A stretch of DNA of 64,000 bases, taken from the NCBI RefSeq assembly GCF_036014015.1, contig NZ_CP107905.1, forward strand, positions 5,022,001 to 5,086,000, in the 5' to 3' direction. The notes beneath the pieces are model-generated. The model worked only from the letters and a program-made list of their open reading frames with translations, was not told the origin of the DNA and did not search any database. Within the stretch, counting starts at the first letter, position 1. The number at the start of each line of letters is the position of its first letter. The position numbers were made by a program, and so were the translations under genes. Below are positions 2,035 through 19,485 of the stretch, one piece after another. The stretch is from Streptomyces sp. NBC_00457. GTDB lineage: Bacteria; Actinomycetota; Actinomycetes; Streptomycetales; Streptomycetaceae.

Positions 2035-3698
2035 TACCGAAGATCATCACCGGCAAGGGCAGCACCCGCCGCCTGATCGCCTACCTCTTCGGCAAGGGCA
2101 CCGCCAACGAGCACGTCGACCCCCACCTGGTCGCGTCCTGGAACGACTTCGCCCCCGACCCTGGCCGCAGCCCCCACCGCGACCCGAAGAAGGTGGAGAA
2201 GCAGCTCTACACGCAGCTCGACCAACCGGTGGCCATGCTCGGCCGCCGGGCTCCCCAGACCACGGTCTGGCACTGCCCGGTCCGCGCCGCCCCGGAGGAT
2301 CCGATCCTGTCGGACGCCCAGTGGGCCGAGATCGCCCGCCGGGTCGTGGCCGCCGCCGGCATCGCCCCCACCGGGGACACCGAAGCCTGCCGCTGGGTGG
2401 CCGTACGGCACGCCGAGGACCACATCCACATCGCCGCAACCCTCGTCCGCCAGGACGGACGCCGCCCCAAGCAGGACTACGACATCCGAGCCGTCCAGCG
2501 CGAAGCCCGCCAGATCGAAGTCGACTACGGGCTGCGGCGGTTGAATCCGGGCGACGGCACCGCCGCCAAGCGCCCCACCAGCAAGGAGCACTTCAAGGCC
2601 AAACGCCTGGGCCAGGACGCCACCTCCCGCGAGATCCTGCGTCGGCGCGTGCGCCGCGCGATCGCCGCCGCCTCCACGGAGACCGAGTTCTTCGCACTCC
2701 TGGAGGCATCCGGCGTGGCGGTGCGGCCCAAGACCGAACCGTCCGGAGACGTGACCGGCTACAGCGTCAGCCTGCCCGGCGACGTCAACAAGCAGGGCGA
2801 ACCCGTCTGGTACGCCGGTTCCACCCTCTCGGGCGACCTGTCCCTCCCGCAGGTCCGCAAACGGCTCACGGTGACCGCTCCCGGACCGGTCACCGTCCCG
2901 CCGGGCAGCCCATGGAACCAAGCCACGGCCGCCACCGAACGGATCCTCCACCACCTCACCCACAGCGAGGACGGCGTGGCCCAGGGCCAGCTGGCCGCGC
3001 TCGGCGGAGTGCTCGACCTGCTGCCCGTCACAGCCCAGACAGCAGCACGGGCCGAGCTGGAACAGGCCGCCATGGCGTTCGAACGGGCGACTCGCTCCCG
3101 CGTCGCCGCCGACCACTCCAGCGCCCGCGCCCTGCGGCGCAGTGTCCAGATGATCTGGAACGACCCCGTGCGGCACGGCGACGGTGCCGGACTGGCGATG
3201 CTGGTCGACGTGGCGCTCACCGCGGTCGCCTACGCCGTGCACTGGCACCGCACCCGCCGGCACGCCCAGCAGGAGGCCGCAGCCGAACACGCCCTGGTCC
3301 ACCTGATGACGGCTCACGCGCAGATCACCGAACCGATCCTGGCCCGCCTCACCGCCCGAGCGCCGGGGGCGCAGACCAAGCACCGCTACGCCTACCACCT
3401 GCAACAGGTGGTTCCCGAGCACGCCGAACGCATCCTCAACGACCGAGCCTGGGATGCCCTGACCACCGTGCTCGCCGAGGCGGAGGCCGCGGGTCACAAC
3501 GTGTCCGCGCTCCTCGACCAGGCCGTTGGTCAACGCACGTTGGAGGATGCCCGCAGTCCCGCTCGCGCCTTGTCCTGGCGGATTCGTCGCCTCGGCGAGC
3601 GCCACGTACCGGGCCCTCAGGCCCAGGCAGCCAACGCCCGCGCACAACGCCCGACCTCGCCCCCACTCGCTCCGGAGGTCAAGGGGCACCAGCGCTGA
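2031..3698 (+). CDS. Relaxase / mobilisation nuclease
   Basis: The 555-residue protein starts with GTG at 2031, overlapping the MobC-like stop. The N-terminal 180 residues form a MobA/VirD2-type relaxase domain: IIxGKGS-like start, and the metal-binding HxH motif DHIHIAA with His131 and His133. A possible acceptor Tyr lies near YLFGKG (about residue 19). Relaxases nick oriT, stay covalently bound to the 5' end and pilot the strand into the recipient. The C-terminal 350 residues are alpha-helical and rich in Ala/Arg, without a recognisable helicase. It ends 1 bp before the stop codon of the decayed flavoprotein gene on the other strand. Confidence 0.85.
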   Translation: MIPKIITGKGSTRRLIAYLFGKGTANEHVDPHLVASWNDFAPDPGRSPHRDPKKVEKQLYTQLDQPVAMLGRRAPQTTVWHCPVRAAPEDPILSDAQWAEIARRVVAAAGIAPTGDTEACRWVAVRHAEDHIHIAATLVRQDGRRPKQDYDIRAVQREARQIEVDYGLRRLNPGDGTAAKRPTSKEHFKAKRLGQDATSREILRRRVRRAIAAASTETEFFALLEASGVAVRPKTEPSGDVTGYSVSLPGDVNKQGEPVWYAGSTLSGDLSLPQVRKRLTVTAPGPVTVPPGSPWNQATAATERILHHLTHSEDGVAQGQLAALGGVLDLLPVTAQTAARAELEQAAMAFERATRSRVAADHSSARALRRSVQMIWNDPVRHGDGAGLAMLVDVALTAVAYAVHWHRTRRHAQQEAAAEHALVHLMTAHAQITEPILARLTARAPGAQTKHRYAYHLQQVVPEHAERILNDRAWDALTTVLAEAEAAGHNVSALLDQAVGQRTLEDARSPARALSWRIRRLGERHVPGPQAQAANARAQRPTSPPLAPEVKGHQR

Positions 3699-4173: not shown

Positions 4174-4970
4174 GCGTGGGCTCCAGGATGGTGAGCCGCT
4201 CGTTGGGCGCCGAGCTGCTCTGCCAGCGCATCGGGCCCGATCTTGCTCAAGGCCCACAGGCTGCTGGATCGACGGGCCCACCGCCAGAGCAGGTCATCCA
4301 CAGGGGTGTGGAAAGGCAGCACAGGAATGCCGTGGGCGCTGAAGGGAACGGCGTCGAGGTAGCGCAGACCACCGGTGCCGCACAAATAGTGGGTACTGCC
4401 GGTGGCTGCCGCAAGGTCGGCGAGGCGCTCAGAGCGGCCTTGCCGGGTCGGGATCTCACTGCTGTCCCGCACCTTCCCCGACCAGCCGACAACCCTGAGC
4501 AGGGCTATCGTCGATGCTCTCGCAAGGTCGGCTACACGGTCCGAGTCGTCGAGCGCGTCCAGGACCTCGGACACAGCACCCCAGTAGGGGCTACGGCCGT
4601 AGTACTGGCGGACGAGCAGTTGGACCGTCCGGCGCGAGCGACGAGGATCAACGAGCCGGGCCTGGCTGATCAGCGTCGGGCGCCCGTGGGGAAGGTGCGT
4701 CGGGAGCGTGAGCCACTGCTGTCGGGATGGATCGTCCAAGGCAGCGAGACGGGCACGGTGCTGGTAGTCACGACGAGCGAACTGCACGTCGTCCAGGACG
4801 ATCCACTGGTCGGCGGAGAACAGCTTCGCCAGCGTGGACAGCCGTGGGAACAGGTTCGGTTGGTGGATCGCGCACAGCCCGCCCGACGCATCGGCGCGGG
4901 GTGGCTCAGGTGCTGATGAGGCGGCTGTCGAAGCCGGCGGCCAGAAGGCGCTCGTAAGCGTCATACACAT
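4170..4970 (-). CDS. WbqC-like family protein
   Basis: The protein carries the family's N-terminal signature AIHQPNLFPRLS followed by LDDVQFARRDYQHRA, a TLPTHLPHGRPTLI segment and a GTGGLRYL motif near residue 205. WbqC-like proteins (PF08889) occur in polysaccharide and modified-metabolite loci; their reaction is not settled. The only in-frame starts are at 4970 or 4964, inside the YdcF gene, so the two genes overlap by about 60 bp. The C-terminal stop overlaps the flavoprotein start by 4 bp, so regulator, YdcF, WbqC and flavoprotein form one operon read leftwards. Confidence 0.8.
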   Translation of the reverse strand: MCMTLTSAFWPPASTAASSAPEPPRADASGGLCAIHQPNLFPRLSTLAKLFSADQWIVLDDVQFARRDYQHRARLAALDDPSRQQWLTLPTHLPHGRPTLISQARLVDPRRSRRTVQLLVRQYYGRSPYWGAVSEVLDALDDSDRVADLARASTIALLRVVGWSGKVRDSSEIPTRQGRSERLADLAAATGSTHYLCGTGGLRYLDAVPFSAHGIPVLPFHTPVDDLLWRWARRSSSLWALSKIGPDALAEQLGAQRAAHHPGAHA

Positions 4971-5595
4971 CCCCTGGTACGTCCTGCTCGACGGCGAAGC
5001 CGAGCTTCGGGTACTCGATCACCCGTTGCAGGTCGCCGACGAGCATGTCGACGACGAGCTTCTCGTCGCCGATCGACTTGATGTAGTCGTCCAACTCCAG
5101 CGGCTCGGAGGCGCACACAACCTCGACCTCGGGCCACAGCTTGCGGCAGGTCGCATACGAGCGGCGCTCCATGTACGGCTTGGAGATGAGCAGCAGCGAC
5201 TCGACCGCAATGCCGGACTCGGCCAGCAGCTCGCGGGAGAAGGTGATGTTCTGGCCGGTGTTGGCGGCCTTCGGCTCAACCAGGATCGCCTCGTCCGGCA
5301 CCCCCAGGCTCAGCGCGTGCTCGCGGTAGTGCACGGCCTCGCCGCGCGGGAAGCGAGCGCGGGTGGTGGGACTGTTGCCGCCGCTGAACACCACGACCGG
5401 GAAGAGGCCATCGCGGTAGAGATCGGCGGCCGTGGTGGCCACGCCGAGGTCGTGGCTGCCCAGGCCGATCGCCGCCGAGCAGGGCCGCTGCTCGTGGGCC
5501 ATCTGGTGGTAGTCCCAGATCAGCGTCGCGTCGTGGAACTGCTCGTCGGTGATCTGGCGCTGCTCGTGCTCCGGCACTGGCACTCCCTGGCTCAT
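4906..5595 (-). CDS. YdcF/ElyC/SanA-like DUF218 protein
   Basis: The 229-residue protein contains the DUF218 core: GLGSHDLGVATTAADLY (Rossmann-like first motif), VVVFSGGNSPTTRARFPRGEA, the helix-strand HALSLGVPDEAILVEP, and TGQNI. No transmembrane helix precedes it, unlike the membrane-anchored E. coli SanA/ElyC, so it is probably cytoplasmic. The function of the actinobacterial branch is unknown. The ATG overlaps the stop of the HTH/TPR regulator by 4 bp. A decayed second member of the same family lies at about 30242-30365. Confidence 0.85.
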   Translation of the reverse strand: MSQGVPVPEHEQRQITDEQFHDATLIWDYHQMAHEQRPCSAAIGLGSHDLGVATTAADLYRDGLFPVVVFSGGNSPTTRARFPRGEAVHYREHALSLGVPDEAILVEPKAANTGQNITFSRELLAESGIAVESLLLISKPYMERRSYATCRKLWPEVEVVCASEPLELDDYIKSIGDEKLVVDMLVGDLQRVIEYPKLGFAVEQDVPGDVYDAYERLLAAGFDSRLIST

Positions 5596-6635
5596 CCCTG
5601 CTGGCCCATTCGGATGCCCTCGATACTGCGCAGCTGGTGGCTCAGCCTGTACTGGCGGGCCACCTGTGCCGCCTGATCGAGGACGGACAGCCCATCATTC
5701 CGGGTCGCCGCATCCGACAGAAGGATGTGCCCGTACGCGGTGTCCAGCCTCACCCGCTGCATCGGGGAGTCGACCGTGCCGGTGGTGCGTGCGATGTCGA
5801 TGTAGTGCAGGGCCTGTTTCAGGTCGCCGGCACCTCGGTGGGCCAGGGCCAGCTTCTGGTGGGCGACCGACCAGTCCTCTGGCTCGCCCAGATCCTCGAA
5901 GGCACGAGTGGCGGCCGTCATCGCGTTGGTGGCGTACTCGTTGTCGCCCTCCTTGCTCAGGGCCGTTCCTACCCAGAGTCGAGCCCTGGCGCGGTCGCGC
6001 GGGCTCAAGCGCTCGTCGGCGGCGAGGAGTTCGTACTGGCGGGCCGAGACCTCCAGCTGGCCGGACATCTCCTGGACCACGGCGAGTGAGAGGTCGATTT
6101 GGGCCACGCGGCGCGGGATGTCGAGCTCGGAGAACATGCCGCGGGCGGTCAGGTACGAGTGCCGGGCGGAGAGTGGGCCGAGAATCGCGCCCTGGTCACG
6201 CTGAAGGTCGCCGAGAAGGACGAGGGAACGGCCGTAGAGGTAGAGGCCCTTGTCGTCCAGGCGATGCGGGTCGTGGCTTCCCAGCCAGCGGTTCAACAGC
6301 GTGGCGGCGAAGGGGAAGTTCTGGCGGCTGACGCAGACGACAGCGCGCTCAATGTCTTCGGTCCAGGTCTCGTAGTCCGCCGGTCGCGTGCTCTTCCGCT
6401 CGGGGAACAGCAGCGCCTCGAACCTGGAATGGGCGGCGGAGTCCGCACGGGCGAGGGCGGTGTCGAGAATGGCCTGCGTGTCCGGCCGGGGCTGGGTTTC
6501 GGCGCCGAGGCTCTCCCACTTGGCCACCGTGCGCAGCGCGACACCGAGGTGCTCGGCGAAAGCGCGCGTGCTCATGCGCAGCGCGGCGCGCAGGGCGCTC
6601 GCCTCCCGACCGGTCCATTGCTGCACGCTGACCAC
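5592..6635 (-). CDS. HTH transcriptional regulator with TPR-like domain
   Basis: The chosen start is the GTG at 6635, because a strong GGAGGGAGG site lies 5 nt upstream; the open frame continues to 6698 but without such a site. The 347-residue protein has an Xre-type helix-turn-helix at residues 10-50 (MSTRAFAEHLGVALRTVAKWE) and then about 280 residues of helical pairs characteristic of tetratricopeptide repeats (for example ELSVSARQYELL-type and HQKLALAHRGAGDLKQALHYI segments). Such regulators often respond to a peptide or small signal. It heads the leftward operon, is divergent from the rightward peptide cassette, and may control both. Confidence 0.8.
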   Translation of the reverse strand: MVSVQQWTGREASALRAALRMSTRAFAEHLGVALRTVAKWESLGAETQPRPDTQAILDTALARADSAAHSRFEALLFPERKSTRPADYETWTEDIERAVVCVSRQNFPFAATLLNRWLGSHDPHRLDDKGLYLYGRSLVLLGDLQRDQGAILGPLSARHSYLTARGMFSELDIPRRVAQIDLSLAVVQEMSGQLEVSARQYELLAADERLSPRDRARARLWVGTALSKEGDNEYATNAMTAATRAFEDLGEPEDWSVAHQKLALAHRGAGDLKQALHYIDIARTTGTVDSPMQRVRLDTAYGHILLSDAATRNDGLSVLDQAAQVARQYRLSHQLRSIEGIRMGQQG

Positions 6636-6754
6636 GGATGACCTCCCTCCGTCTCGTATGGAAGCACTCTCGGTGACGACATGGGGCGGGAAGTGCAACG
6701 GAAGTACAACAGCAGGTCATTTCAAGGCCGTTCGCAGCGGTCGACGCTGTGGGC

Positions 6755-7174
6755 ATGGACGACGAACTCATCACCGAACGCCGCTCCGTCGCCTTCCCTC
6801 AGGTCTTCGGCTACTTGCGCCACGTGACCGGCGGTCTGGCCCGCCACGCGGCGCTCGTCGGCTGCCTCACCGAGTACTGCCGACAGCATGAGCTGGCCCT
6901 GTGCGGCGTATTCACCGACCGCGACGCGGCGGTGCCCGTCCGTTCCCCCGCATTCGTTGGCCTCCTGGACGCGCTGGAACTACCCGAGACCTATGGCGCC
7001 GTCGTTCCCGCCCCCGGCCACCTCGGCCCGAAGCGCGTTGCCGGCGAGCGGAAGCGGCAGATAGCAGCGTCGAGCACCCGTCTGATCGTGGTCCGCTCCA
7101 CTACCAGGCCGACGACGGCCTCCGCGCTCTCCCTCGGAGCGACTGCCGACCTCCAGCGCCTGGGAGATACCTGA
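6755..7174 (+). CDS. Small protein with resolvase-N-like region
   Basis: The 139-residue protein begins with ATG at 6755 (a GTG at 6749 is the alternative). The stretch VFGYLRHVTGGLARHAALVGCLTEYCRQ, then VFTDRDAA, then a loop and VVPAPGHLG, follows the order of a serine-recombinase N-terminal domain (YxR motif, helix, D, LL helix, VP strand). The nucleophilic serine expected just after the YxR arginine is not evident, and no DNA-binding half follows, so recombinase activity is unlikely. The last 30 residues are unlike the rest. Its stop and the next start share one base (TGATG). Confidence 0.55.
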   Translation: MDDELITERRSVAFPQVFGYLRHVTGGLARHAALVGCLTEYCRQHELALCGVFTDRDAAVPVRSPAFVGLLDALELPETYGAVVPAPGHLGPKRVAGERKRQIAASSTRLIVVRSTTRPTTASALSLGATADLQRLGDT

Positions 7175-7590
7175 TGTCCGTTCGCGACGCGCTGCGCAGC
7201 GCCCCCATGGTCAACGACGTGCCCGGACTGCGCCTGCTCCGAGTCGGCGACAGCTGGGACCTCGTACGAACCCCCGCAGAGATGGGTTTCCTGGCCCTGG
7301 CCCACCTGCGGGCCACTGGAGCGGCAATCGGCCCGGTGCTGTACGACGGGCCCAACGAACGCCTCTACTACGCCATCCGGACCGGCACCTCCGGCAGCTG
7401 GAGCGACCTACCGGTACGGCACCTATCCATCAACTCATGGCTCGTCGCGCCCGGCCTGGAGTTGATCGACGACTGGTTCGGCGGCTGGTGCGAACTCCCC
7501 GACGACGACACCCTCACCGACGCCGCCACCCTCCACGCCGCCCTCCAGCACCCGTATATCGGAGCGTCTCTGGAAGAGGTGAGCCGGTGA
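7174..7590 (+). CDS. Hypothetical 138-residue protein
   Basis: It starts at the ATG overlapping the preceding stop and ends at 7590. Visible features are a central AAIGPVLYDGPNERLYYAI segment, a Trp-rich C-terminal part (WSDLP, DDWFGGWCELPDDD) and an acidic tail. The GPVLxD pattern with a following basic/aromatic strand recalls small Streptomyces proteins annotated as truncated primase-polymerase-like, but the similarity is weak and no catalytic motif is seen. Coupling to the upstream gene suggests a joint role. Function unknown. Confidence 0.65.
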   Translation: MSVRDALRSAPMVNDVPGLRLLRVGDSWDLVRTPAEMGFLALAHLRATGAAIGPVLYDGPNERLYYAIRTGTSGSWSDLPVRHLSINSWLVAPGLELIDDWFGGWCELPDDDTLTDAATLHAALQHPYIGASLEEVSR

Positions 7591-7626
7591 ACATCCACGC
7601 AGTCGTGTCGGAGGCATCACCCGGAC

Positions 7627-7770
7627 GTGGCAGACGTCGTGGAAGCCGTGACGGGCCGGGCAGTGAACCGGCCGGCGCGTTACACAGGCCCGCTGCTGAT
7701 CGTGCTGATCTCCGCCTCGTGCGGCTTCGTGATCGGCGTCGCGGTCTCCACCCCCCAGGCCAGCCCCTGA
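7627..7770 (+). CDS. Small single-span membrane protein
   Basis: A 47-residue frame begins at GTG 7627 with a GGAGG at 7610-7614, 12 nt upstream. The first 20 residues are mixed and basic (VNRPARY) and are followed by one hydrophobic helix (LLIVLISASCGFVIGVAV) and a short polar tail. It looks like the small membrane proteins common in Streptomyces mobile elements. It is in the same frame as the preceding gene, separated by that gene's stop and 12 codons, so readthrough or separate initiation are both possible. No family recognised. Confidence 0.45.
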   Translation: MADVVEAVTGRAVNRPARYTGPLLIVLISASCGFVIGVAVSTPQASP

Positions 7771-7773
7771 GTC

Positions 7774-7838
7774 CCCGTCCCTGCCGAACGTAGCTAATCG
7801 GAAAGGTCCCCGCCCCGAGAAGCCCCGGCAGGGACGGG
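7774..7838. other. 12-bp perfect inverted repeat before the peptide gene
   Basis: CCCGTCCCTGCC at 7774-7785 is exactly complementary to 7827-7838, with a 41-nt loop. It sits directly after the small membrane protein stop and about 110 bp before the peptide gene. It could terminate the upstream unit or fold as a leader that separates expression of the peptide cassette from it. No U-tract is present. The DNA from 7839 to 7930 shows no other gene and is a likely place for the peptide promoter. Confidence 0.4.
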
Positions 7839-7945
7839 CCAAAAGCCCCACCCCGGGCTGACCAACCGCCCACGACCTTGGACAGGTCGAGCGCCGTCCG
7901 GGGCGGGTCCGCAAGGCCACTTCATCCCCGACCACTGGAGGAGCA

Positions 7946-8092
7946 ATGCAGAACAACACCGCCACCGCCCCGACGACCGGGCCGCCCCAGGCCGGACTGG
8001 TCAAGGCACGCCGCCGGATCCAGGCCGCACGCGAGCGCGGCGTCACTCCGTCCGACGGCGGCAGCACCGGCCGCACCGACGGCAACGACTGA
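7946..8092 (+). CDS. 48-residue candidate precursor peptide
   Basis: A short frame begins at ATG 7946, preceded by GGAGGAG with 3 nt spacing to the start, one of the best ribosome sites in the region, and ends at 8092, 16 bp before the oxygenase start. The product has an uncharged N-terminal part rich in Thr/Pro/Ala (TATAPTTGPPQAG), a basic helix-like middle (KARRRIQAARERG) and a Gly/Ser/Asp-rich C-terminus (DGGSTGRTDGND). It has no signal peptide, no Cys and no aromatic residues. Position as first gene before an oxygenase, reductase and kinase suggests a substrate peptide, perhaps modified on Arg, Asp, Asn or Thr. That role is inference. Confidence 0.6.
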   Translation: MQNNTATAPTTGPPQAGLVKARRRIQAARERGVTPSDGGSTGRTDGND

Positions 8093-8108
8093 TCCGGGAG
8101 GAAACGCG

Positions 8109-9296
8109 TTGTCGCCGCTGAATCTGGCGGCCCGCCTGGGCCAGGACGAGTTCCTGGCCCAGGTGCTCCACCGCCGCTACCGCCACGTCCCCGCAGCCAT
8201 CCAGGCCCCGGACAAGCTGATCACTTGGGACGACGTCAACACCATCCTGGCCACCCACCGCCTGGAGCCACCTCGTTTCCGCCTGTCCGCGGACGGCGAG
8301 ATGCTGCCGGCCCACCGCTACACCGCGCCGGTCACCACCCGCCGGCACACCGTCTGGCAGCGCCTGCACCCCGCGGAGTTGCACGCACGGCTCGCCGAGG
8401 GCGCCTCCCTGGTCATCGATGCCGTCGACGAACTGCACCCACCCGTCGCCCGCGCGGCCATGGAGCTGGAACGGTGGCTGCGCACGGGGGTGCAGGCCAA
8501 CCTGTACGCCTCCTGGACCGCACGCGAGGGCTTCGGCGTGCACTGGGACGACCACGACGTCGTCGTCACCCAGATCGACGGCGCCAAACGCTGGAAGCTG
8601 TACGGCCCTACGCGTACCGCCCCTATGTACAAGGACACGGACGAGCCCGAACCTCCGCCGGAGAAGCCAGTCCTGGAACTCGTGCTTCGTCCTGGGGACA
8701 TGCTGTATCTGCCGCGCGGCTGGTGGCACTCGGTGGCCGCCTCCGAAGGCGAGTACTCGCTCCACCTCACCTTCGGCGTCCAGACCACCACCGGCGCCCA
8801 ACTCCTGTCCTGGCTCGCTGACGACCTGCGCCGCCACGACGTCCTCCGCGAAGACCTGCCCGTACACGCGACCGCCGCCGCGCAGGTGATCTATCTGGAG
8901 CGGCTGCGCAACGAGGTCACCTCCGCCCTGGAAGACCCAGAGCTCATCGGCCGGTATGCGGCAATGCGCGACGGAACCGACCTCACCCGCCTGCGGCCAA
9001 GTCTCCCCCACCTCACCAGCGTCCCCGCAGTCCCGAACCTCCGCGTCAGGCTCACGACCGCCCGGGCGCTTTTGGAGCCCAACGAGGACGGGGTGGTCTT
9101 CCGGGCCTGCGACAACGAGTGGGAGATGGCGAAGCAGACCATGCCGCTGCTCCAACGGCTGATGTCGGCCGCGCCTACCGCCGTCTCCCTCGACGAGCTG
9201 GCTGAGGCAGCCGGAATGTCCGTCGCGGATGTGGCGGCCGTCGTCTCCGAACTGATGGTCGGCCAAGCGATCACCGTGGAGAGGAAAGAGCGATGA
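8109..9296 (+). CDS. JmjC/cupin-like Fe(II) oxygenase
   Basis: The start is TTG at 8109 with GGGAGG 7-8 nt upstream; no ATG/GTG fits better. The 395-residue protein has a JmjC-type cupin core: FGVHWDDHDV gives His145 and Asp147, and YLPRGWWHSV gives His207, the expected 2-His-1-carboxylate iron triad. RWKLYGP lies between them. The C-terminal 100 residues form a winged-helix-like domain (LDELAEAAGMSVADVAAVVSEL), as in bacterial ROX-type peptide/ribosomal protein hydroxylases (YcfD class). Such enzymes hydroxylate Arg or His side chains with 2-oxoglutarate and O2. It overlaps the reductase start by 4 bp. The adjacent peptide is the obvious candidate substrate. Confidence 0.85.
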   Translation: MSPLNLAARLGQDEFLAQVLHRRYRHVPAAIQAPDKLITWDDVNTILATHRLEPPRFRLSADGEMLPAHRYTAPVTTRRHTVWQRLHPAELHARLAEGASLVIDAVDELHPPVARAAMELERWLRTGVQANLYASWTAREGFGVHWDDHDVVVTQIDGAKRWKLYGPTRTAPMYKDTDEPEPPPEKPVLELVLRPGDMLYLPRGWWHSVAASEGEYSLHLTFGVQTTTGAQLLSWLADDLRRHDVLREDLPVHATAAAQVIYLERLRNEVTSALEDPELIGRYAAMRDGTDLTRLRPSLPHLTSVPAVPNLRVRLTTARALLEPNEDGVVFRACDNEWEMAKQTMPLLQRLMSAAPTAVSLDELAEAAGMSVADVAAVVSELMVGQAITVERKER

Positions 9297-10201
9297 CGAA
9301 GACAGTCCTGGGCCTGGGCACCTACCGCATTCGGCCCTCCGCGCTGAGCGACGCCGTGGCCCGCGTAGCCACAGATCCTGCGACAGCGTGGATCGACACC
9401 GCGCCCACCTACCTCGACGGGCAGGCCCAGCCGCTGCTGGCGCCGGCCCTCGCTCGGCACCCGGTCCCGGTGTCCACGAAGGTCGGATTCCTCACCACTC
9501 AGACCGCTGAGGACGCCGTTGACGACGGGGCCATCACGTCCGGTGACGCGGAGCGCGGACATTGCCTAAGCCTCCCGTACGTCCACTGGCAGTGCGCCCG
9601 CAACCGAGCCGAACTCGGCCGCGACCGCCTCGACCTCGTCTTCGCGCACAACCCCGAACGCACCGACGGTGACCCGCGCGATGGCCTGCGCCACGCCTTC
9701 ACCGCCCTCGAAGCAGAAGCGGCAGCCGGCGCCCTGACCGCGTACGGCGTCGCCACCTGGGATGGTTTCGACACCGGTGCTCTGAGCGTCCCGGCCCTGC
9801 ACCAGCTGGCCACCGAGGTGGCCGGCACAGAGCAACACCACCTGCGAGCCGTCCAGCTACCCGTATCCCTCGTCACCGCCACCGCCTTCGCACAAGCCCT
9901 GGACGGGGAAGGCCCCGTTGCGCAGGCCGCCGAACTCGGATGGCAGGTGTACGCCTCGGCGCCCCTATTCGGCGGGGAACTGCCGAACCTGGCCACGCGC
10001 GAACTCGCCGCACTGCTGAACCCCGAACTCACCACCGCCCAGGCATGCCTCCTCGCAACAGCCTCCTGCCCGGGGGTGACACGAATTCTGCTCTCCGCCT
10101 CCACCCCGGCACACTGGGCCGAGGCACAAGAAGCCCTGCGGACACCTGCCATCCCAGCCCCCACGCTGCGAAAGGTGCTGGATGTACTCGCCCCCGACTG
10201 A
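9293..10201 (+). CDS. Aldo/keto reductase family protein
   Basis: The 302-residue TIM-barrel protein starts at an ATG overlapping the oxygenase stop (ATGA). The AKR catalytic tetrad is visible: Asp35 and Tyr40 in AWIDTAPTYLDG, Lys63 in STKVGF, and His119 in LVFAHNP. GLGTYRI at the N-terminus is the first barrel strand. Family members reduce carbonyls with NADPH, so it could act on an aldehyde or ketone made by the preceding oxygenase. The C-terminal coding end overlaps the next gene by 20 bp, indicating co-translation. Confidence 0.85.
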   Translation: MTKTVLGLGTYRIRPSALSDAVARVATDPATAWIDTAPTYLDGQAQPLLAPALARHPVPVSTKVGFLTTQTAEDAVDDGAITSGDAERGHCLSLPYVHWQCARNRAELGRDRLDLVFAHNPERTDGDPRDGLRHAFTALEAEAAAGALTAYGVATWDGFDTGALSVPALHQLATEVAGTEQHHLRAVQLPVSLVTATAFAQALDGEGPVAQAAELGWQVYASAPLFGGELPNLATRELAALLNPELTTAQACLLATASCPGVTRILLSASTPAHWAEAQEALRTPAIPAPTLRKVLDVLAPD

Positions 10202-11006
10202 CCCCTCGGACCAGCAGCGCATGCGCCGGGCCTTCGCGCGATCAGCGGAAACGCTGGGCGCTACGGTCACGGGCCCCGAAGTCTGGGGCTGGCACGGCCG
10301 AACCCTCAGCGCCCGCGCCCAGTACCCGGATGACAGAGCCTGCTGGCTCCGGCTGCTCTCGGCCCCGGAAGACAAGGCCACTGGAAAGATCTGGGAGGGC
10401 AACCGCGATGCCGCCGCGCTCTTCGACGGGCGCGTCTGCAAACCGCTGCTGTACGACAGCACGCAGTCGAGGAGCAACGGCTACGCGTACCGGGCTGAGG
10501 TGCACCAGTACGTTGCCGAACCTGTTGTCTCCACCGACCCAGTGCCGCGCACAGATCCGAACCCCCTGGCCAGGTGGTGGGAGTCGCTGCGCGCAGACCT
10601 GGAGTACGTCAGCAGCACCCCCACCGACCGCGTGGCCGTACGGCAGGAGTGGGTTGATCGCACCGTCCCCCGCTTCCTCCACATCCCCGGCCCTCGGATC
10701 ACGGACTGGACGACGGCCCACGGCGACCTGCACACCGCCAACCTCACCGCCGCCACGCCCTATCTCCTCGACTGGGAAGGCTTCGGCCTGGCACCAGTCG
10801 GCTACGACGCCGCCACGTTGTTGGCGTACTCGCTCCTTGTCCCCGCATTCGCCCACCGCATCCGTGACACCTTTCCCGTGCTCAAGACAGAGCCCGGACG
10901 CGTCGCACAGATCATCGTCATCACCGAGGTGCTGCAGTCGGCTTCGCGCGGGGACCATCCCGAGCTTGTCCCCGCATTGCGCGCCCTGGCGGCAGAACTC
11001 GGTTGA
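10182..11006 (+). CDS. Aminoglycoside-phosphotransferase-like kinase
   Basis: The 274-residue protein starts at ATG 10182 behind AAAGGTG, inside the reductase gene. The catalytic loop HGDLHTANL (Asp182, Asn187) and the metal-binding LDWEGF (Asp197) define the APH/choline-kinase fold. The N-lobe is short and poor in glycine, so its nucleotide-binding Lys is not obvious. In this context it may phosphorylate the modified peptide or a small precursor; a resistance role is also possible. It is the last gene of the cassette, followed by a hairpin at 11166-11192. Confidence 0.8.
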   Translation: MYSPPTDPSDQQRMRRAFARSAETLGATVTGPEVWGWHGRTLSARAQYPDDRACWLRLLSAPEDKATGKIWEGNRDAAALFDGRVCKPLLYDSTQSRSNGYAYRAEVHQYVAEPVVSTDPVPRTDPNPLARWWESLRADLEYVSSTPTDRVAVRQEWVDRTVPRFLHIPGPRITDWTTAHGDLHTANLTAATPYLLDWEGFGLAPVGYDAATLLAYSLLVPAFAHRIRDTFPVLKTEPGRVAQIIVITEVLQSASRGDHPELVPALRALAAELG

Positions 11007-11317: not shown

Positions 11318-11719
11318 CTACAACTCGCACCACTCCCCAAGCTCCTCAAACACCCCTGTCCGAACAAAATTCTGCACAATATCCCACGCGCGATCGACAC
11401 TCAGGACGAATTCACCCGTGAAAACTGATAGTTCATCCATGATTGGGACGTCCGCTGTCGCATCCGGTGGGACGGTGCCATCCCCGGCGAGAAGAGACAC
11501 AGTTTCTTCAGAGGTGAAGAGATGAATGATGGCGTGATCATCTCGGAAACTCAGAGTCAATTGAGGAAATTCGCTGTCCGTCAACCGGAATTCCAGATGA
11601 CCCTGTCCCCGGGAGCGCAGTTCGTTGAAGTCGCCCGTCAGATCGCGCAGTTCCGAGCCTCTCTCGCCTGGTTGGCACCGCCCAGACTCCAGTGACTTGG
11701 ACGACCACACCACACGCAC
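11318..11719 (-). CDS. Imm1-like immunity protein
   Basis: The GTG start at 11719 has GGAGG 7 nt upstream. The 133-residue acidic protein has beta-rich N-terminal strands (LEFRLTD, LTLSFRDDHAIIHLF) and a C-terminal helix with DRAWDIVQNFVRTG followed by ELGEWCEL. This matches the Imm1 pattern, in which a helix ending in an F..tG segment precedes a conserved Trp. Imm1 proteins neutralise toxins delivered by polymorphic Rhs or WXG proteins. It lies downstream of the giant Rhs gene on the same strand, but two other small genes are closer, so it may be a banked immunity gene for another toxin. Confidence 0.55.
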   Translation of the reverse strand: MRVVWSSKSLESGRCQPGERGSELRDLTGDFNELRSRGQGHLEFRLTDSEFPQLTLSFRDDHAIIHLFTSEETVSLLAGDGTVPPDATADVPIMDELSVFTGEFVLSVDRAWDIVQNFVRTGVFEELGEWCEL

Positions 11720-12217: not shown

Positions 12218-12628
12218 TCACAGCACCCCGATTTCCTTCAAATGGCAGAGGTGCCGGTCAACGGACACCACCTCTTCCCGGGAAAGGACGGGAGGGACCC
12301 ACTGCCGAGAATTACCGTGAGAAATGAACTCTTCCGGCAGCTCGATCCCGTAGTGCTCCACATAGTCAGCCGCATCGAGCCTCCAGAAGAACCGGCCGTC
12401 ACTCATGATGGCGGTGCCGCCGGACCGGGAGAACTTCTTACCCAGGATATCCTCCGAGAATCCCATCAGAGCAATGATGGGCGTGCCGGAGCGAAGGTAT
12501 TCGGCGATCCTTCCCCGTTCCCCCTCGGGAATCACACCCGCCAGCCGCCGGAGCTCATCGGCATTTCCCGAAAAGGCGGACTGGCTTGCGATCCTGCCGA
12601 ATATCCCCAGGGGTGTGATGTTCGTCAT
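12218..12628 (-). CDS. Putative cognate immunity protein of the Rhs toxin
   Basis: The 136-residue protein is encoded 108 bp after the Rhs stop on the same strand. It starts with ATG at 12628. Features are a glycine-rich turn FSRSGGTAIMSDGRFFWRLDAADYVEHYG and a Trp-Pro-Pro near the C-terminus. The closing SREEVVSVDRHLCHL helix is typical of small immunity folds. No named Imm family is recognised. Immediate position after the toxin's variable C-terminus makes it the most likely neutralising partner. Lower GC and more A/T-ending codons than neighbours fit recent transfer of the toxin tip plus immunity module. Confidence 0.6.
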   Translation of the reverse strand: MTNITPLGIFGRIASQSAFSGNADELRRLAGVIPEGERGRIAEYLRSGTPIIALMGFSEDILGKKFSRSGGTAIMSDGRFFWRLDAADYVEHYGIELPEEFISHGNSRQWVPPVLSREEVVSVDRHLCHLKEIGVL

Positions 12629-12736: not shown

Positions 12737-15700
12737 CTACCGCATACCCCAGGGGACCGGATTGCCCTGGGAACCGTCCGGCCACTCCCTCACAGTGCCT
12801 GCGAGGGGGTCGAGGTCCACCTGGTGCTTGCTCGCGCCTGTGACTTTTACTCCCATGGCTTCCGCGAGCTCTCGGGCGGAACCGCAGCCAGCATGGCAGG
12901 AGACGATCTGAATTGGGCCGCCGTTGTAATGCGGATTCTCTCTGACGAGCTGGGCTATCTGTTGGGGGTGGGTAATCAGGCCGTCCACCCGGAAATTGCC
13001 CGCCTCGTCTCCGTGGACAATCACGTCGTGCCCCTTGGCGCCGGTCGACCTCAGGAAATTCTGGATCGTGTTGGCGTCGTCACCGATGGCCGTGGCAGTC
13101 TCGCTGTACCGGACCTTGCTGCCGGCCCAGGTGAAGGAGACTCCGGTACCCACCGCCAGGCTTCCGCCGGAGGCGCCGCCGGTGGCCATTTCCGCGATCG
13201 TGGCGGCACACACGGGCGCTGTGGCCAGGCATCCCGGGGCTAGGGCGGCGACCACAGGAGCAACGGCTACTCCTAGTCCTACGACCGTGACAGCACCGAG
13301 AAGGATCTTCTGAAAGGTGGAGAGCTTGCCCCGGTCGATGTCGTCGCTCACGGTCGGGTCGTAATTCGGGTTGGTGCCCATCGCCCAGCCGTGGAAGACC
13401 CCTTCCTTCTTCTCGGGCTTCGGGTCAGGCCCCTTCTTAAAGACAATCTCCGCCGACTTGTGGCCCCCGTCTGTGCGGACAGTGACGGTCATGGTGCCGC
13501 TTCCGGTACCGCCGCCTGCCTTCTGGTACGTGAACGTCTGGGAGTAGGTCTTCGTATACGACCAATTCCAGCCGCTGCTGCTCTTGGTCCAGGTTTCGGT
13601 GCCGCCGTTGCAGGAGCTTGAGGCACCGCCGCACATTCCGTCAGGACGGAGGCCTGTGGGGTCGGCGAGCGTGACGGGGGTGTTGTTGGCGTAGGCGTAG
13701 CCGTTGAGGGACTCGTGGTCGTCGGGGGCGAGGACCGGATCGACGGAGAGGAATCGTCCCGTGGCTGGGTCGTACTCGCGGGCGCCGATGTGGGTGAGTC
13801 CGGTGTCGGCGTCGGCGGGTTTGCCGAGGTAGCCCTTGTCGTCGGGCCAGGCCGGCGGTGTCGTGCCGCGTGCCTCACCGAAGGGCTTGGTGTAGCGGCG
13901 GGTGACGGCCTGGGATGTGGCGTCCACCGTCATCGAGGCGGTGCCGTGGTGGTCGTCGACCATCCAGGACAGGCCGGTCTCGGTGCGGACGGCGGTGGCG
14001 TCGCCTGCCGGGTAGTAGCGCTGGGCGGTGAACTTCTTGGCGGCAGTGTCGTAGTGGAGTTCCTGACCGGCCAGGTAGAGGACGGTCTTGACGGGGCCGC
14101 GGCGGATCAGGAGTTCACCGTTGGCGTCGTAGAGGTAGTCGGTGGTCTTGGTGCCTTCGGTGAGGCGGGTGAGTTCTCCTTCGATGTCCCAGGTGAGGCT
14201 CTGCGCGGTGCCGGTGGAGCTGTAGCGCTTGGTGGTGTTGCCCTGCTCGTCGTGGGTGTACGACTTGGCGGTGCCGCCGTTGACCGTGACCGAGGTCATG
14301 GTGTGGGGCTGGCCGGTGCCGTTGGCGTTGACGGCGGGGTAGCCGTAGGCGGTCGTGGTGTCAGTGGCCTTGTGCTCGATCTGGGTGTCGCGCAGGCCGC
14401 CGGGCTTGTAGGTCCAGCTGGTCCAATACGGGGCCGGGCCGCCGAGGGCGGTCGCCGAGCGGGCGGTGGCGCAGTCGTTGGAGGACGGGGTCCAGGCTTC
14501 GGTCAGGCGGCGGTAGCCGTCGTAGGCGAAGCACTGGGTGTCCTTGCCGTTGGCCTTGTCGGTGATCGACTTGACGTTGCCAGTGGCGTCGTAGAAGTAG
14601 TCGACGTCGCTGGTGTTGCCGGTGTTGGTCTGGTCGACGGTGTGGGTGTTGGACAGGCGGCGAGTGCCGTCCTCGTAGCGGTTGAGGATCTGGAGCTGCT
14701 TGGCGCCCGTGGAGGTGCCGAGGCGGGTCTCCTCGATCTCGCCGTACGGGGAGTAGCCGATGTTCTGGATGTAGTCCGTCATGCCGTCGGTGCCGGTGAG
14801 CAGGCCGAGGCCGTTGTAGCTGTTGGTCACGGCCTCGGCGGGCAGACCGGCCACCGCTGGCATCGAGGTGGACTGGACGGTGCCGTCGATGTTGTAGGTG
14901 GTGGAGGTGGTGAACGTCTGCGGCGCACCGCCGTCGGCAACCAGGGCGTCGGTGGCGGCGATGACGGTCTTGGTGCCCTTGGGGCGACCGAGCGCGTCGT
15001 AGCCGGTGACGACCTGGGAGTAGATCTTGCCGGTGGTGCCGCCCACATATCGGATCGAGGCGGTCGGCTGTCCCTTGGCCAGGGAGTCGTAGGTGAACTT
15101 GGTCAGCTGGTGGGCGTTGTCCTTCACCCCGTCCCAGGTGCCGGTCTTGCGGCCGAGTTCGTCGTAGTCGGTGATCAGGTTGCGGGAGACGCCGTCGAGG
15201 GTCGTGGTGACCGTCAGCGGCTGGTCGACGTCGTTGTAGGTGGTGTCGGTTTTGCCCTTGTCGGGATCGGTGGAGGTGATCTTGCGGCCGCGCAGGTCGT
15301 AGCCGTACGTCCACACCGCCCCGTCCGGACCGGTCATCTTCTTGAGCTGACCGCCCGGCGTGTACTCGTACTGGGTGCGGGTGAAGTCGGTGCCGGTCGG
15401 GACGGGGCCGCTGTACTCGCGGCGCTCGGTGACTCGGCCGCGGGCGTCGACGATCGTCAGTGTGCCGGTGCCGCCCGCGGCGGCGGTGACGGCGGTGCGG
15501 TCGCTCTGCTCGTCGGTCTTGGTGCGCCATTTCTCCTGGTCGTAGACCCGGAAGATCGATTCGGTGGCGCGGCCGGCGGCGTCGAAAACCGTCTCGGTGG
15601 AGGCGGGGACGGAGCCGGGGTAGGTGTTGGCCAGGGTGCCTGAGGGGGCGAGGTTGTCGTGGACCTGAGTGTTGGAGATGTACGCCAGGCCGCGGTCGTC

Positions 15701-18700
15701 GTAGAGGGTTTCGGAGATCACCCGGCCGCCGTTCGGCGCGGGGACCTGCTTCTGGCGGGACCGCAGCAGGCCGTCGAAGATCTCGTAGGAGCTGTTGTAG
15801 GTCTGCCCGTCCGCCTTGAGGGCGTCGGTGCGGACCCAGGTCTCCTTGTCGTTGTTGATGCTGTAGGCGTAGACGATGCTGGCGGCGTCGCCGAGCGTGC
15901 GCGAGCGGTCCGGCTTCCAGACCGACCGCAGGCGGCCCAGCGCGTCGAAGGACCACTCGGTGATGTTGCCGTTGGCGTCGGCGGTCTTGGTGGCCGTGCC
16001 CCAGGCCGGGTCCACGTCGGTGGTGGAGGTGTAGAGCTTGGGGTCGGTGGTGGTCTTGGACGTCAGCGGGCCGTAGCCGGTGTCGTCGGGGACATAGGTG
16101 GTCTTGATCGTGCGGTTGAGGGCATTGGTCGCCGTGAGCGGGCGGCCCAACTTGTCGTAGGTGGAGCTGGAGACCTGCTGGTAGACGGGGGCCTTGTCCA
16201 CCACGTCGTAGCTGGCGACCCGGTAGGAGGCGGTCATCTCGCCCTTGGTGGGCGCCACCCCGACCGCTTGGCCGTCGTAGGCGGTGGTGATGTCGGAGAC
16301 GACGTCGTCCGGGACCGCCGGGATGGTCGCGCAGGGTACCGAGTAGGTCTCGGTACGCGAGACCGCGTTCACCAGCCAGGCTGATGTGTTGCGGGCGTAG
16401 CTGGTCCGCACGCACGACTCATCGCCGGTCTTGGCGGCGTCGCCGCTGTCCTCGACGGTGATCGGCATACCGTACTTGGTGTCGTACGTCGTCTTCTGCT
16501 TGACCGTGCGAGTACCGGTGGACGTCTTTTGGCGGGTGACGGTCTCACCGGCCTGGACGATCCAGGAGTCGGTGGTGCCCCAGCTGTAGGTGTGACTGCC
16601 GGTCTTGTGAGACCAGGGGGTGTTGATGGTGCCGCTGATTTCCTCGGTGCCGTTGTAGGCGATGGTCTCGCGGACGAAGCCGGCGTACTGGCGGGAGTCG
16701 TCGATGGCGGTGCCGGTGGAGTCGGTGACCTTCTCGACGCGGGCGGTGCCGTCGAGTTCCTTCTCACCGTTGAGACCACGCATGTAGAGGGTGGACTTCT
16801 TGGAGCGCGGGCCCTCGGAGTTACCGGAGGTCTCCACGACCTTGGCGTAGCCGCGCCACTGCGACCAGGTGCGGTTGGACGGCTTGGTCAGACCCTCGTC
16901 GTCGGCGTAACCCCAACCGGCGTTCTCGTAGGCGTAGTACTTCTCGTTGGTGTCGCCGTGGCCGTAGGGGTCGTCCTGGAAGGTCGAGGTGACCACGTAC
17001 TTGTGGAACCAGTCGGTGACCGGGGTCGCCCCGGACTGGGACCACTTCACCGGGTAGCAGCGGCGGGTGTTCTTGTCGATGTTCGCCGGCATGCTGGTGC
17101 CCCAGATGCAGTCCGGGTCGGAGTAGTTGACCGTGATGGTCGAGCCGGTCTCGGACTTGATGGTGCGCACGCGCCACTTGATGTAGCGCAGGGTGTCCGG
17201 GCCGCTGCCCTCGACGTGGTTGGACCTCTGGATGCCGCCGAAGACGATCGGCGGCATGGCGGCCGTGGTGCTGTTAGCCTTGCCGGTGTTCTGGATGGAC
17301 TTCAGCCACAGGCTCGGCGAGGAGGCGTCACCGGTGTCGGGGAAGCTCTGCTCCAGGTGCCAGGTGTCCACGTCCCGCCGGGTGGTGCCAGTGCCGGTCC
17401 ATACCGAGGTGGTGATGTCGGTGAGGCGCTTGCGGGTGAAGAAGGCCGGGCCGATCTGGGTGGTGCACTTGGTGTTGGCCGCGCAGATCATGTCGAAGGG
17501 CACGTCGGGCCAGTTGGCCTTGGTGTCCGCCGTCAGGCTGGAGCAGCCGCCCGAGACGACGCAGCGCTCGGCATAGGTGAAGCGGACCTGCTGAGCGGCG
17601 GGCTTGGTGTAGATCAGGTCGCTGCGCAGGCCGTAGTCAATGCGGTTGAGGTAGCCGCCCCGGGCGTAAGCGGTGCCATTGACCGTGGTGTCAGCGTTCT
17701 TGGAGTAGTAGTTGATCTCCTTGCTGTACCAGTAGGCGGACGCGTTGCCGTGCGTGTCCACGACGTAGTCCAGGTTCCAACGCCATGCCTGGTTGCAGGA
17801 GGAGTCGGCGAAGCCAGTGGACTTGTAACAGGGTTCACCGGAGTCGTCGCCGTAGACCGCGACATTCCAGGTGGAGTTGGTGGCCGGGTCGTCGTCGGCG
17901 GTGTCGGTGGTCCCCTTGTCGCTCCAGCCGGGCAGGCGGTGCTTGCCGAAGAAGTACTGGTTGCCGGACGCGTCCGTGACCTTCCAGTACTCGGTGTTGT
18001 CGTCGCCGTTGCCGGTGGCGCCGGTCAGGTGCTCGACGCGGGTGCCGTCCTCGTTCTTCAGCTTCCACGTCCCGCCGGACGCCTGAGACAGGGCGGCGCT
18101 GTCGCAGGCAGTCTTGTCGGCACAGGCGTTGACCAGCTCGACGGCCTTGCCGTTGAGGACCAGGGTGGCGTTGGCGTACTTCCAGCACAGGTCGCCTTTG
18201 CCGGACTGGCCGTCGTCCTTGCAGGAGCCGTACTTGCGCTCGATGTAGGACTCGGTGATCGAGAATCCTTCGCCGATCACGGAGGTCTGGTTGTTCTCAC
18301 CAGCCGTGCGGCCGTCCACCGAGCCGGAGTTGTAGGAGATGGACAGGCTCGGGGACGGGCCGGCCGTCGCCGGGGGAACCCGCAGCGGGTAGTTCCAGTT
18401 GAAGTCACCCGTGCTGCCGCCGGCCTCCCAGGTCGCGGTCGGCGACAGCGAGGTGGCGCTGTAGTCGCTTCCGCCTCCCGAGCTGTCGGCTGCCGCTGCC
18501 AGCAGCATCGGGGTGCCGGCCTTCACGGTGCGGGCGGAGACGGTGCCCGTCAGGGTCTGGGACTCCGTGTCGTTGTCCGCGCTCGTCACCGGGGTCTGGG
18601 TGCGGCAGGACTTCTTCGCCGGGGTGGTCAGGGCACACGCCGGGAGCTTCACCAGGCGCAGACGGGGGCCGAAGTTGCCACCGTAGACATCGTTGAAGGA

Positions 18701-19285: not shown

Positions 19286-19440
19286 GGTGTTTTCCCGGTT
19301 CTCGGAAATGGAAATGGGCAGGAAGCGCCCGGGCAGCGGCATCGGTGCCCGAAACGCCGGATCTCGATGGCGCGTCCGCGCAGACACACGGCGCGTTCGA
19401 GCAGAACGGACCAGAGCGGAAGAAGGCAGGGTGGGGTAGG

Positions 19441-19478
19441 GCGGGGTAGGGCGGGCCAGAAGGCCCGCCCTACCCCGC
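19441..19478. terminator. Perfect 17-bp hairpin between LamG and Rhs genes
   Basis: The 17-nt arms 19441-19457 and 19462-19478 are exactly complementary with a 4-nt AGAA loop. It starts 7 bp after the LamG-gene stop (19486, minus strand). The extreme stability suggests termination or strong attenuation between the two exoprotein genes. The left arm is continued by a second copy of a GGGTAGGGCG unit, giving a short tandem repeat. Confidence 0.8.
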
Positions 19479-19485
19479 CTCGCTC

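Follow-up and report, generated by a model that had tools for sequence, protein, structure and literature searches.

A putative RiPP-like cassette linking a conserved 48-residue peptide to a JmjC oxygenase, an aldo-keto reductase and an APH-fold kinase in Streptomyces

The four-gene locus and its encoded enzymes

We analysed a 64,000-nucleotide stretch of the Streptomyces sp. NBC_00457 genome (hereafter the window), which spans 5.02-5.09 Mb of the 10.8-Mb genome and carries four genes on the same strand, encoding a 48-residue precursor-like peptide, a JmjC-type oxygenase, an aldo-keto reductase (AKR) and an APH-fold kinase. An original prediction had proposed this set as a new operon for a ribosomally synthesised and post-translationally modified peptide (RiPP). 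The peptide gene (7946-8092, + strand), here called type S1, starts with ATG behind GGAGGAG at 7937-7943, the very strong ribosome site claimed for it, though this lies near the start codon. The JmjC gene (8109-9296, +) follows after a spacing of 16 nucleotides (nt); its frame is open farther upstream, and the fitting start is the TTG at 8109 behind GGGAGG at 8096-8101, which gives a protein of 395 residues. The AKR gene (9293-10201, +) and the kinase gene (10182-11006, +) complete the cassette, with overlaps of 4 bp between JmjC and AKR (9293-9296) and 20 bp between AKR and kinase (10182-10201), exactly as first described. A promoter scan detected none, which says little for Streptomyces, and three terminator-like sites were seen against 1.8 expected.

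The oxygenase belongs to the Fe(II)/2-oxoglutarate (2OG) enzymes and matched JmjC_2 (PF08007) in Pfam with an E-value of 1.1e-28. With the TTG start, the proposed numbering of the metal-binding triad (H145, D147 and H207) holds, and these residues were invariant, together with K160, in 38/38 aligned JmjC sequences chosen by hand for their spread. K160 presumably takes the 2OG-lysine position, as in MINA53. The AF2 model of the protein had a pLDDT of 92, and its nearest folds were NO66, MINA53 and YcfD, with 17-21% identity to solved structures. The predicted C-terminal winged helix (8994-9293, +) was likewise found in the model (pLDDT 90). The model shows a ribosomal-oxygenase (ROX) fold, in which the winged helix bears a resemblance to RiPP recognition elements (RREs) as well. 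The HxD...H triad, the JmjC fold and the winged helix together identify a JmjC/ROX enzyme of PF08007.

The AKR matched Aldo_ket_red (PF00248) in Pfam with an E-value of 9.6e-10, and a profile search against the PDB returned IolS and other AKRs (best E 7.8e-11). Its D35/Y40/K63/H119 tetrad is intact, as originally read, and was invariant in 23/23 hand-picked aligned sequences. The kinase matched APH (PF01636) in Pfam with an E-value of 2.1e-6 and carries HGDLHTAN and DWE. The HGD and DWE motifs noted before are therefore present, and H180, D182, N187, D197 and E199 were invariant in 23/23 aligned sequences, also hand-picked. Arg57 was invariant in the same 23/23 and would occupy the place expected for the beta-3 Lys of an APH kinase. 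This protein was the genome's only match at E 0.001. The four cassette proteins had no PADLOC model match at E 0.01, and a defence-system reading was dropped on this result.

Conservation of the peptide and its linkage to the enzymes

The 48-residue peptide had no Pfam or NCBIfam match at E 1. Its conservation was assessed in a close family with JmjC identity of at least 48%, made up of two overlapping sets: the 30 best JmjC places in genus genomes (L001-L030), the first of them the window itself, and the 80 best among 216 relatives (L031-L110). As 14 pairs among L001-L110 are the same place, this amounts to 109 loci at 95 distinct places besides the window. A small in-frame open reading frame (ORF) was present at 109/109 loci, and its stop codon begins 15-27 nt ahead of the JmjC start as mapped. 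JmjC operons without the small ORF would have spoken against a peptide pathway; none occurred among these loci, and the reading survives this check.

These loci and the window provided 86 distinct peptides. The C-terminal pattern SDx(2-4)Gx[ST]DxND was present in 86/86, with S36, D37, G42, [ST]44, D45, N47 and D48 invariant throughout, and these positions mark a putative core at residues 36-48 (SDGGSTGRTDGND; 8051-8089, +). Upstream of it, a putative leader or recognition segment at residues 17-34 (GLVKARRRIQAARERGVT; 7994-8047, +) carried the pattern L-x6-[IV]-x-[AV]-x-[RQ]-x-[RSQ], again in 86/86. All 86 cores contained no Cys, in agreement with the description of the peptide as Cys-free. 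When codons were compared between the window and seven distinct close 48-residue relatives, residues 18-48 differed by 28 synonymous and 2 amino-acid changes, and residues 1-17 by 8 synonymous and 33 amino-acid changes. Ser at position 44 is encoded both by AGC and by TCN codons. These results demonstrate that the C-terminal conservation of the peptide is far beyond chance and that its frame is under protein-level (purifying) selection in the C-terminal two thirds; a lack of protein-level conservation, the other result that would have counted against the proposal, was not observed. We also considered, and rejected, an RNA element as the alternative to a peptide, as no Rfam family reached its gathering score between 4000 and 15000 and the codon changes show protein-level selection.

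A peptide profile search of 295 genus genomes found 41 places in 37 genomes, and 41/41 lay directly upstream of a JmjC place when the two search tables were compared by eye. The JmjC gene itself (identity of at least 45%, one split gene counted) was present, by table reading, in about 38/295 genomes; the sole one without a peptide hit was G173 (L133), in which only the last residues of the peptide are left. Six candidates per genome were scored in the JmjC search and 24 in the peptide search, and further copies may be missed. Across 81 loci (the window and L031-L110), the AKR was matched at 80/81 and all four genes at 79/81; at L044 the JmjC match is shortened and both AKR and kinase are unmatched, and the contig of L055 ends behind the AKR. 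Presence was counted by tblastn at E 0.001, with some AKR matches partial, because the GC3 gene caller missed most AKR genes. A single further family also yielded S1 cassettes, from seven genomes (L139-L145; JmjC identity 42-47%), with peptides such as ...LLVAVEEIAVARSRGEQPSDGGGTGRSDLNDN... that bear C-terminal extensions, and the protein database names for that S1 type include Nocardiopsis, Actinomadura, Allonocardiopsis and others. The modifying enzymes thus stand beside the precursor across taxa.

Three Streptomyces loci (L132, L133 and L134) had JmjC and kinase matches and no AKR match. We considered whether the absence of the AKR was tied to Gly in place of Ser/Thr before the last Asp pair (GKGDGND in L132 and L134), and dropped this, since L141 and L144 have both an AKR and GD. 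At L133 (G173), the peptide tail RGKGDGND alone remains before the JmjC gene at about 4944-4970, next to what looks by eye like an HTH-type gene on the opposite strand; this remnant is read as natural loss or rearrangement. At L129 (G241; about 5430-7950), the JmjC gene of an S1 cassette is interrupted just behind its HWDDHD motif by an insert that carries a reverse transcriptase/maturase-like ORF and looks by eye like a group II intron; peptide, AKR and kinase matches are still present there.

Two further precursor types accompany related JmjC genes. Among 19 remote JmjC stretches (L111-L128 and L130; 31-44% identity), five had a type S2 peptide, five had other small ORFs (L122, L123, L126, L127 and L128) and nine had none that was convincing. 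At the S2 loci (L117, L118, L120, L121 and L125) the JmjC is 31-34% identical, both AKR and kinase are matched, with the kinase on the opposite strand in some, and the peptide has a similar leader and another tail (...GLLIAVExLxxVQDRFDTQESDPTGTSAGDDG...). Precursor profiles of S1 and S2 matched each other with an E-value of 1.8e-5 and a probability of 78%, and further S2 members were found. Type S3 has a JmjC of 34-42% identity, no AKR or kinase match and the peptide MDPIEVEVEDLAEVTSRDITAGGDSDGTDSSSDFI or close variants at 13/15 loci (L147-L161). Its precursor profile matched that of S1 weakly when compared directly (E 0.008) and better via S2 (E 6.5e-4). At the eight wide-flank S3 loci (L162-L169), a prolyl oligopeptidase gene lay upstream in 8/8, with Peptidase_S9_N and S9 in L163, and neither AKR nor kinase was matched.

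These types allow a leader-like part to be told from a core-like one, as the tail differs between related precursors whose leader motif is similar. What we observed for the window's peptide is a short peptide under selection with a conserved recognition part and a separable core, as expected for the precursor of a RiPP pathway. The JmjC, and not the trio of enzymes, is the common element, because the AKR is unmatched at L132-L134 and both AKR and kinase are unmatched at S3. A common JmjC, a shared leader-like segment and a variable tail therefore form the pattern of a precursor family. In a JmjC tree of 55 hand-picked rows, made with a quick method and weak in its deep forks, S1 (24 rows) had an SH-aLRT support of 89, S3 of 98, and S2 together with three unassigned rows of 100.

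Several remote loci carry other arrangements. L174, L176 and L178 grouped with S2 in the JmjC tree and had AKR matches, L178 also a kinase match. At L122 and L123 (G209 and G052), the JmjC gene lies behind a small ORF ending in ...ARATFAKTHNRAGVPDF[ST]QMFGDSAK, another candidate precursor type, and L126 (G137) has a 46-residue ORF, MTKVSVAPKSETHAARRPKRIGFSVETVKTAQVKSVPNLEVDQKDV, before the JmjC gene, possibly a further precursor. At L127 and L128 (G010 and G126), a small ORF near the JmjC gene is repetitive, with units like GPADGGAAGTPGVHDGGADGGAE, and the ORF upstream of the JmjC homologue at L111 (G018; 39%) reads by eye like an asparagine-synthetase type.

Proposed pathway and alternative explanations

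We conclude that the locus very probably encodes a RiPP-like pathway, and that it is probably an undescribed RiPP-like cassette in which the JmjC is the common enzyme and the AKR and kinase are add-ons. The proposal of a peptide-modification operon stands in respect of the conserved precursor-like peptide and the enzyme set. Its second half, in which the trio would act on the peptide in the order hydroxylation, reduction and phosphorylation, remains a proposal, and loci with no AKR match (L132-L134), or with neither AKR nor kinase matched (the eight wide S3 loci), make the JmjC and not the trio the common element.

In the pathway we propose, the middle of the peptide (GLVKARRRIQAAR) would serve as the leader, held by the RRE-like C-terminal winged helix of the oxygenase model. 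The acidic Ser/Thr/Gly tail would be fed to the Fe(II)/2-oxoglutarate site and hydroxylated, and it is likely that the JmjC acts on this core. The likeliest target would be the beta-carbon of one of the invariant Asp residues (or of Asn). Asp is favoured because SD is the clearest core feature common to S1 and S2 and Asp recurs in S3; we put the chances for and against beta-hydroxylation of a core Asp at about equal. The kinase would then phosphorylate Ser/Thr or the new hydroxyl, the peptide being its substrate on an evenly balanced estimate, and the AKR might reduce or reset a carbonyl that arises from over-oxidation, although here the balance tips slightly against the peptide as substrate. 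The kinase and AKR steps look like add-ons because the AKR, or the AKR and the kinase, are missing from related clusters. In S1, genes outside the cassette would provide leader removal and export, and S3 has its prolyl oligopeptidase next door. What the data show directly is conservation, linkage, intact active sites and predicted folds; every chemical step, the border between leader and core and the function of the S1 cassette are inferred.

Some features could also be accommodated if the peptide were a small stable partner or regulator (a subunit, inhibitor or sensor) and the enzymes had another protein or a small molecule as substrate. Seven core positions are fixed in all distinct peptides, which makes the core almost invariant, and APH and AKR folds mostly take small-molecule substrates. 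Moreover, no exporter or protease was conserved with S1 cassettes at the 81 loci when ORF clusters were judged by eye, although a dedicated leader peptidase or exporter close by is a common and not an obligatory feature of RiPP pathways. We nevertheless hold a partner role to be improbable, as related systems keep the leader-like motif and change the tail, the prolyl oligopeptidase at 8/8 wide-flank S3 loci completes a precursor pattern, and the JmjC model resembles the protein-modifying ROX family and has an RRE-like domain. It also seems rather unlikely that the JmjC alone modifies the peptide, with the kinase serving self-protection or storage on the finished product and the AKR detoxifying or supplying a small molecule. 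The position of the JmjC as common element speaks for such a division, with the AKR unmatched at L132-L134 and AKR and kinase unmatched at the eight wide S3 loci, and so does the fact that APH enzymes are classic inactivating kinases. Set against this, the trio occurs together at 79/81 loci and the kinase in S1 and in five S2 loci, which suggests one pathway, with self-protection still compatible.

Activation of Ser/Thr by the kinase for elimination to dehydroamino acids, as in class V lanthipeptides and thioamitides, is very improbable. PF01636 kinases are so assigned in class V lanthipeptides in the decRiPPter report (PMC7794033), and Ser and Thr abound in the core; however, the whole genome had 0 HopA1 (PF17914) matches at E 0.001 and the 86 cores had 0 Cys, and dehydration of this kind was dropped for these two reasons. 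Least credible is a ribosomal oxygenase operon, in which the JmjC would hydroxylate a ribosomal protein like NO66, MINA53 and YcfD and the small ORF would be incidental. The window's JmjC is like these enzymes in fold, HxD...H triad and winged helix, and differs from them in its operon-linked small peptide, its patchy distribution and its low identity to them. Presence in about 38/295 genus genomes and the strict link to a peptide are unlike a housekeeping modification, and the gene context argues against a ribosomal-protein substrate.

Kinases act as RiPP tailoring enzymes on phosphorylated lasso peptides such as paeninodin; unlike those systems, the window gave no lasso cyclase or protease in general family scans of the neighbours, in which no search aimed at them was made. 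JmjC proteins reported to hydroxylate RiPP precursors include BipG (PMC12707348) and PbsQ (PMC12257519). The biphenomycin-type RiPPs (BipG/BpmG and PbsQ) are alike in placing a JmjC or cupin-like 2OG oxygenase on a ribosomal precursor in a RiPP cluster, and unlike in their multinuclear non-heme iron-dependent oxidase (MNIO), B12 radical S-adenosylmethionine enzyme, arginase and Orn/Arg step. The window cassette has instead an AKR, an APH kinase and an Asp/Ser/Thr/Gly core. The 2025 RRE-Finder report (PMC12710340) notes that JmjC (PF08007) domains are found fused to RRE-like folds, and that homologues of about 30% identity occur in bacteria in RiPP-like contexts. These RRE-JmjC fusions share with the window the combination of PF08007 and an RRE-like winged helix, whereas section 6 of that report gives neither a precursor family nor a cluster type nor an AKR/APH set. 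Class V lanthipeptide and thioamitide kinases are alike in being PF01636-fold kinases in an actinobacterial peptide cluster, and for class V lanthipeptides the decRiPPter report lists sprPT and the HopA1 protein sprH3 for dehydration and cyclisation (PMC7794033). The window cassette differs in having no HopA1 match in the genome, no Cys, and a JmjC and an AKR instead.

None of the scanned libraries names this enzyme set as a system, and we recognised no description of the S1 precursor family or of a JmjC-AKR-APH peptide cluster among the open-licence papers that our searches listed. The decRiPPter main text (PMC7794033) has 0 occurrences of cupin, aldo, JmjC and hydroxylase, and its 42 unnamed candidates may include the S1 family. 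RiPPs with JmjC hydroxylases and RiPPs with APH-fold kinases are already known; what appears to be new is this precursor family and gene set. A precursor profile of S1 with three S2 rows matched 597 protein clusters at E <=0.01, and an S2 profile matched 246 at E 0.001; among the 120 listed for each, the source names were variants of hypothetical, uncharacterized and, once, secreted protein. If a RiPP-like pathway is indeed encoded, it would stand for a large class of RiPPs that so far bears no label and would tie eukaryote-like ribosomal oxygenases to peptide natural products of bacteria. Its four genes would also make a small system for learning the roles of a JmjC, an AKR and an APH kinase directed at a peptide. 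A bolder extension, which we regard as doubtful, is that ROX-type JmjC enzymes with RRE-like tails found an actinobacterial RiPP superclass of at least three precursor types (S1 with AKR and kinase, S2 with a different core and S3 with a prolyl oligopeptidase), and that the S1 product is a hydroxylated, stably phosphorylated Asp/Ser/Thr/Gly peptide serving as an intracellular signal or effector and not as an antibiotic. Such an intracellular role is suggested, speculatively, because the core is near-invariant, no exporter is conserved and an HTH/TPR gene lies upstream.

Neighbouring genes and other features of the window

The window's own helix-turn-helix/tetratricopeptide-type (HTH/TPR) regulator (5592-6698, - strand) is divergent from the genes at 6749-7590 and had a weak HTH_31 match below cut-off. 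Shared neighbours were derived from stop-to-stop ORFs by single linkage in 22 dereplicated groups of the 81 loci. The commonest upstream neighbour was an HTH/TPR-type family, usually divergent, in 13/22 groups and 40/81 loci; the family of the window's own regulator occurred in 7/81 loci (the window and 6/80 wide loci). The suggestion that this regulator is the peptide-sensing partner is thus weakly supported: it gains from the frequency of the family and loses by the fact that the family is not universal, and a possible partner is what we would call it. Four more clusters reached 5-7 groups, of which one is relaxase-like by eye and three look antisense or off-frame, and no neighbour besides the cassette genes was universal across the 81 loci.

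Between the regulator and the peptide gene lie three small genes on the + strand. The uncharacterised proteins of 141 residues (6749-7174) and 138 residues (7174-7590) have no Pfam family, and a 47-residue ORF (7627-7770) has a hydrophobic stretch and 49-87% tblastn identity where matched. Among L001-L110, all three had tblastn matches in close relatives only, and the 141-residue protein occurred at 7 loci in the gene-family table.

Downstream of the cassette, a 2497-residue ORF (12737-20230, -) looks YD-repeat/RHS-like by eye; its end (12740-14200) gave no Pfam family, and neither did two small same-strand ORFs (12218-12628 and 11318-11719). A methyltransferase-like gene was matched at 18/81 loci, and relaxase-like (no Pfam match), integrase-like and resolvase-like genes were matched at 10, 9 and 15 of 81 loci, respectively. 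Such relaxase-, integrase- and resolvase-like neighbours would fit a mobile accessory cassette. In the window, the product of 2235-3617 (+) shares 76% identity with a protein that looks by eye like a relaxase (no Pfam match) and lies near the cassette of L031 and others; the gene is possibly part of a mobile element.

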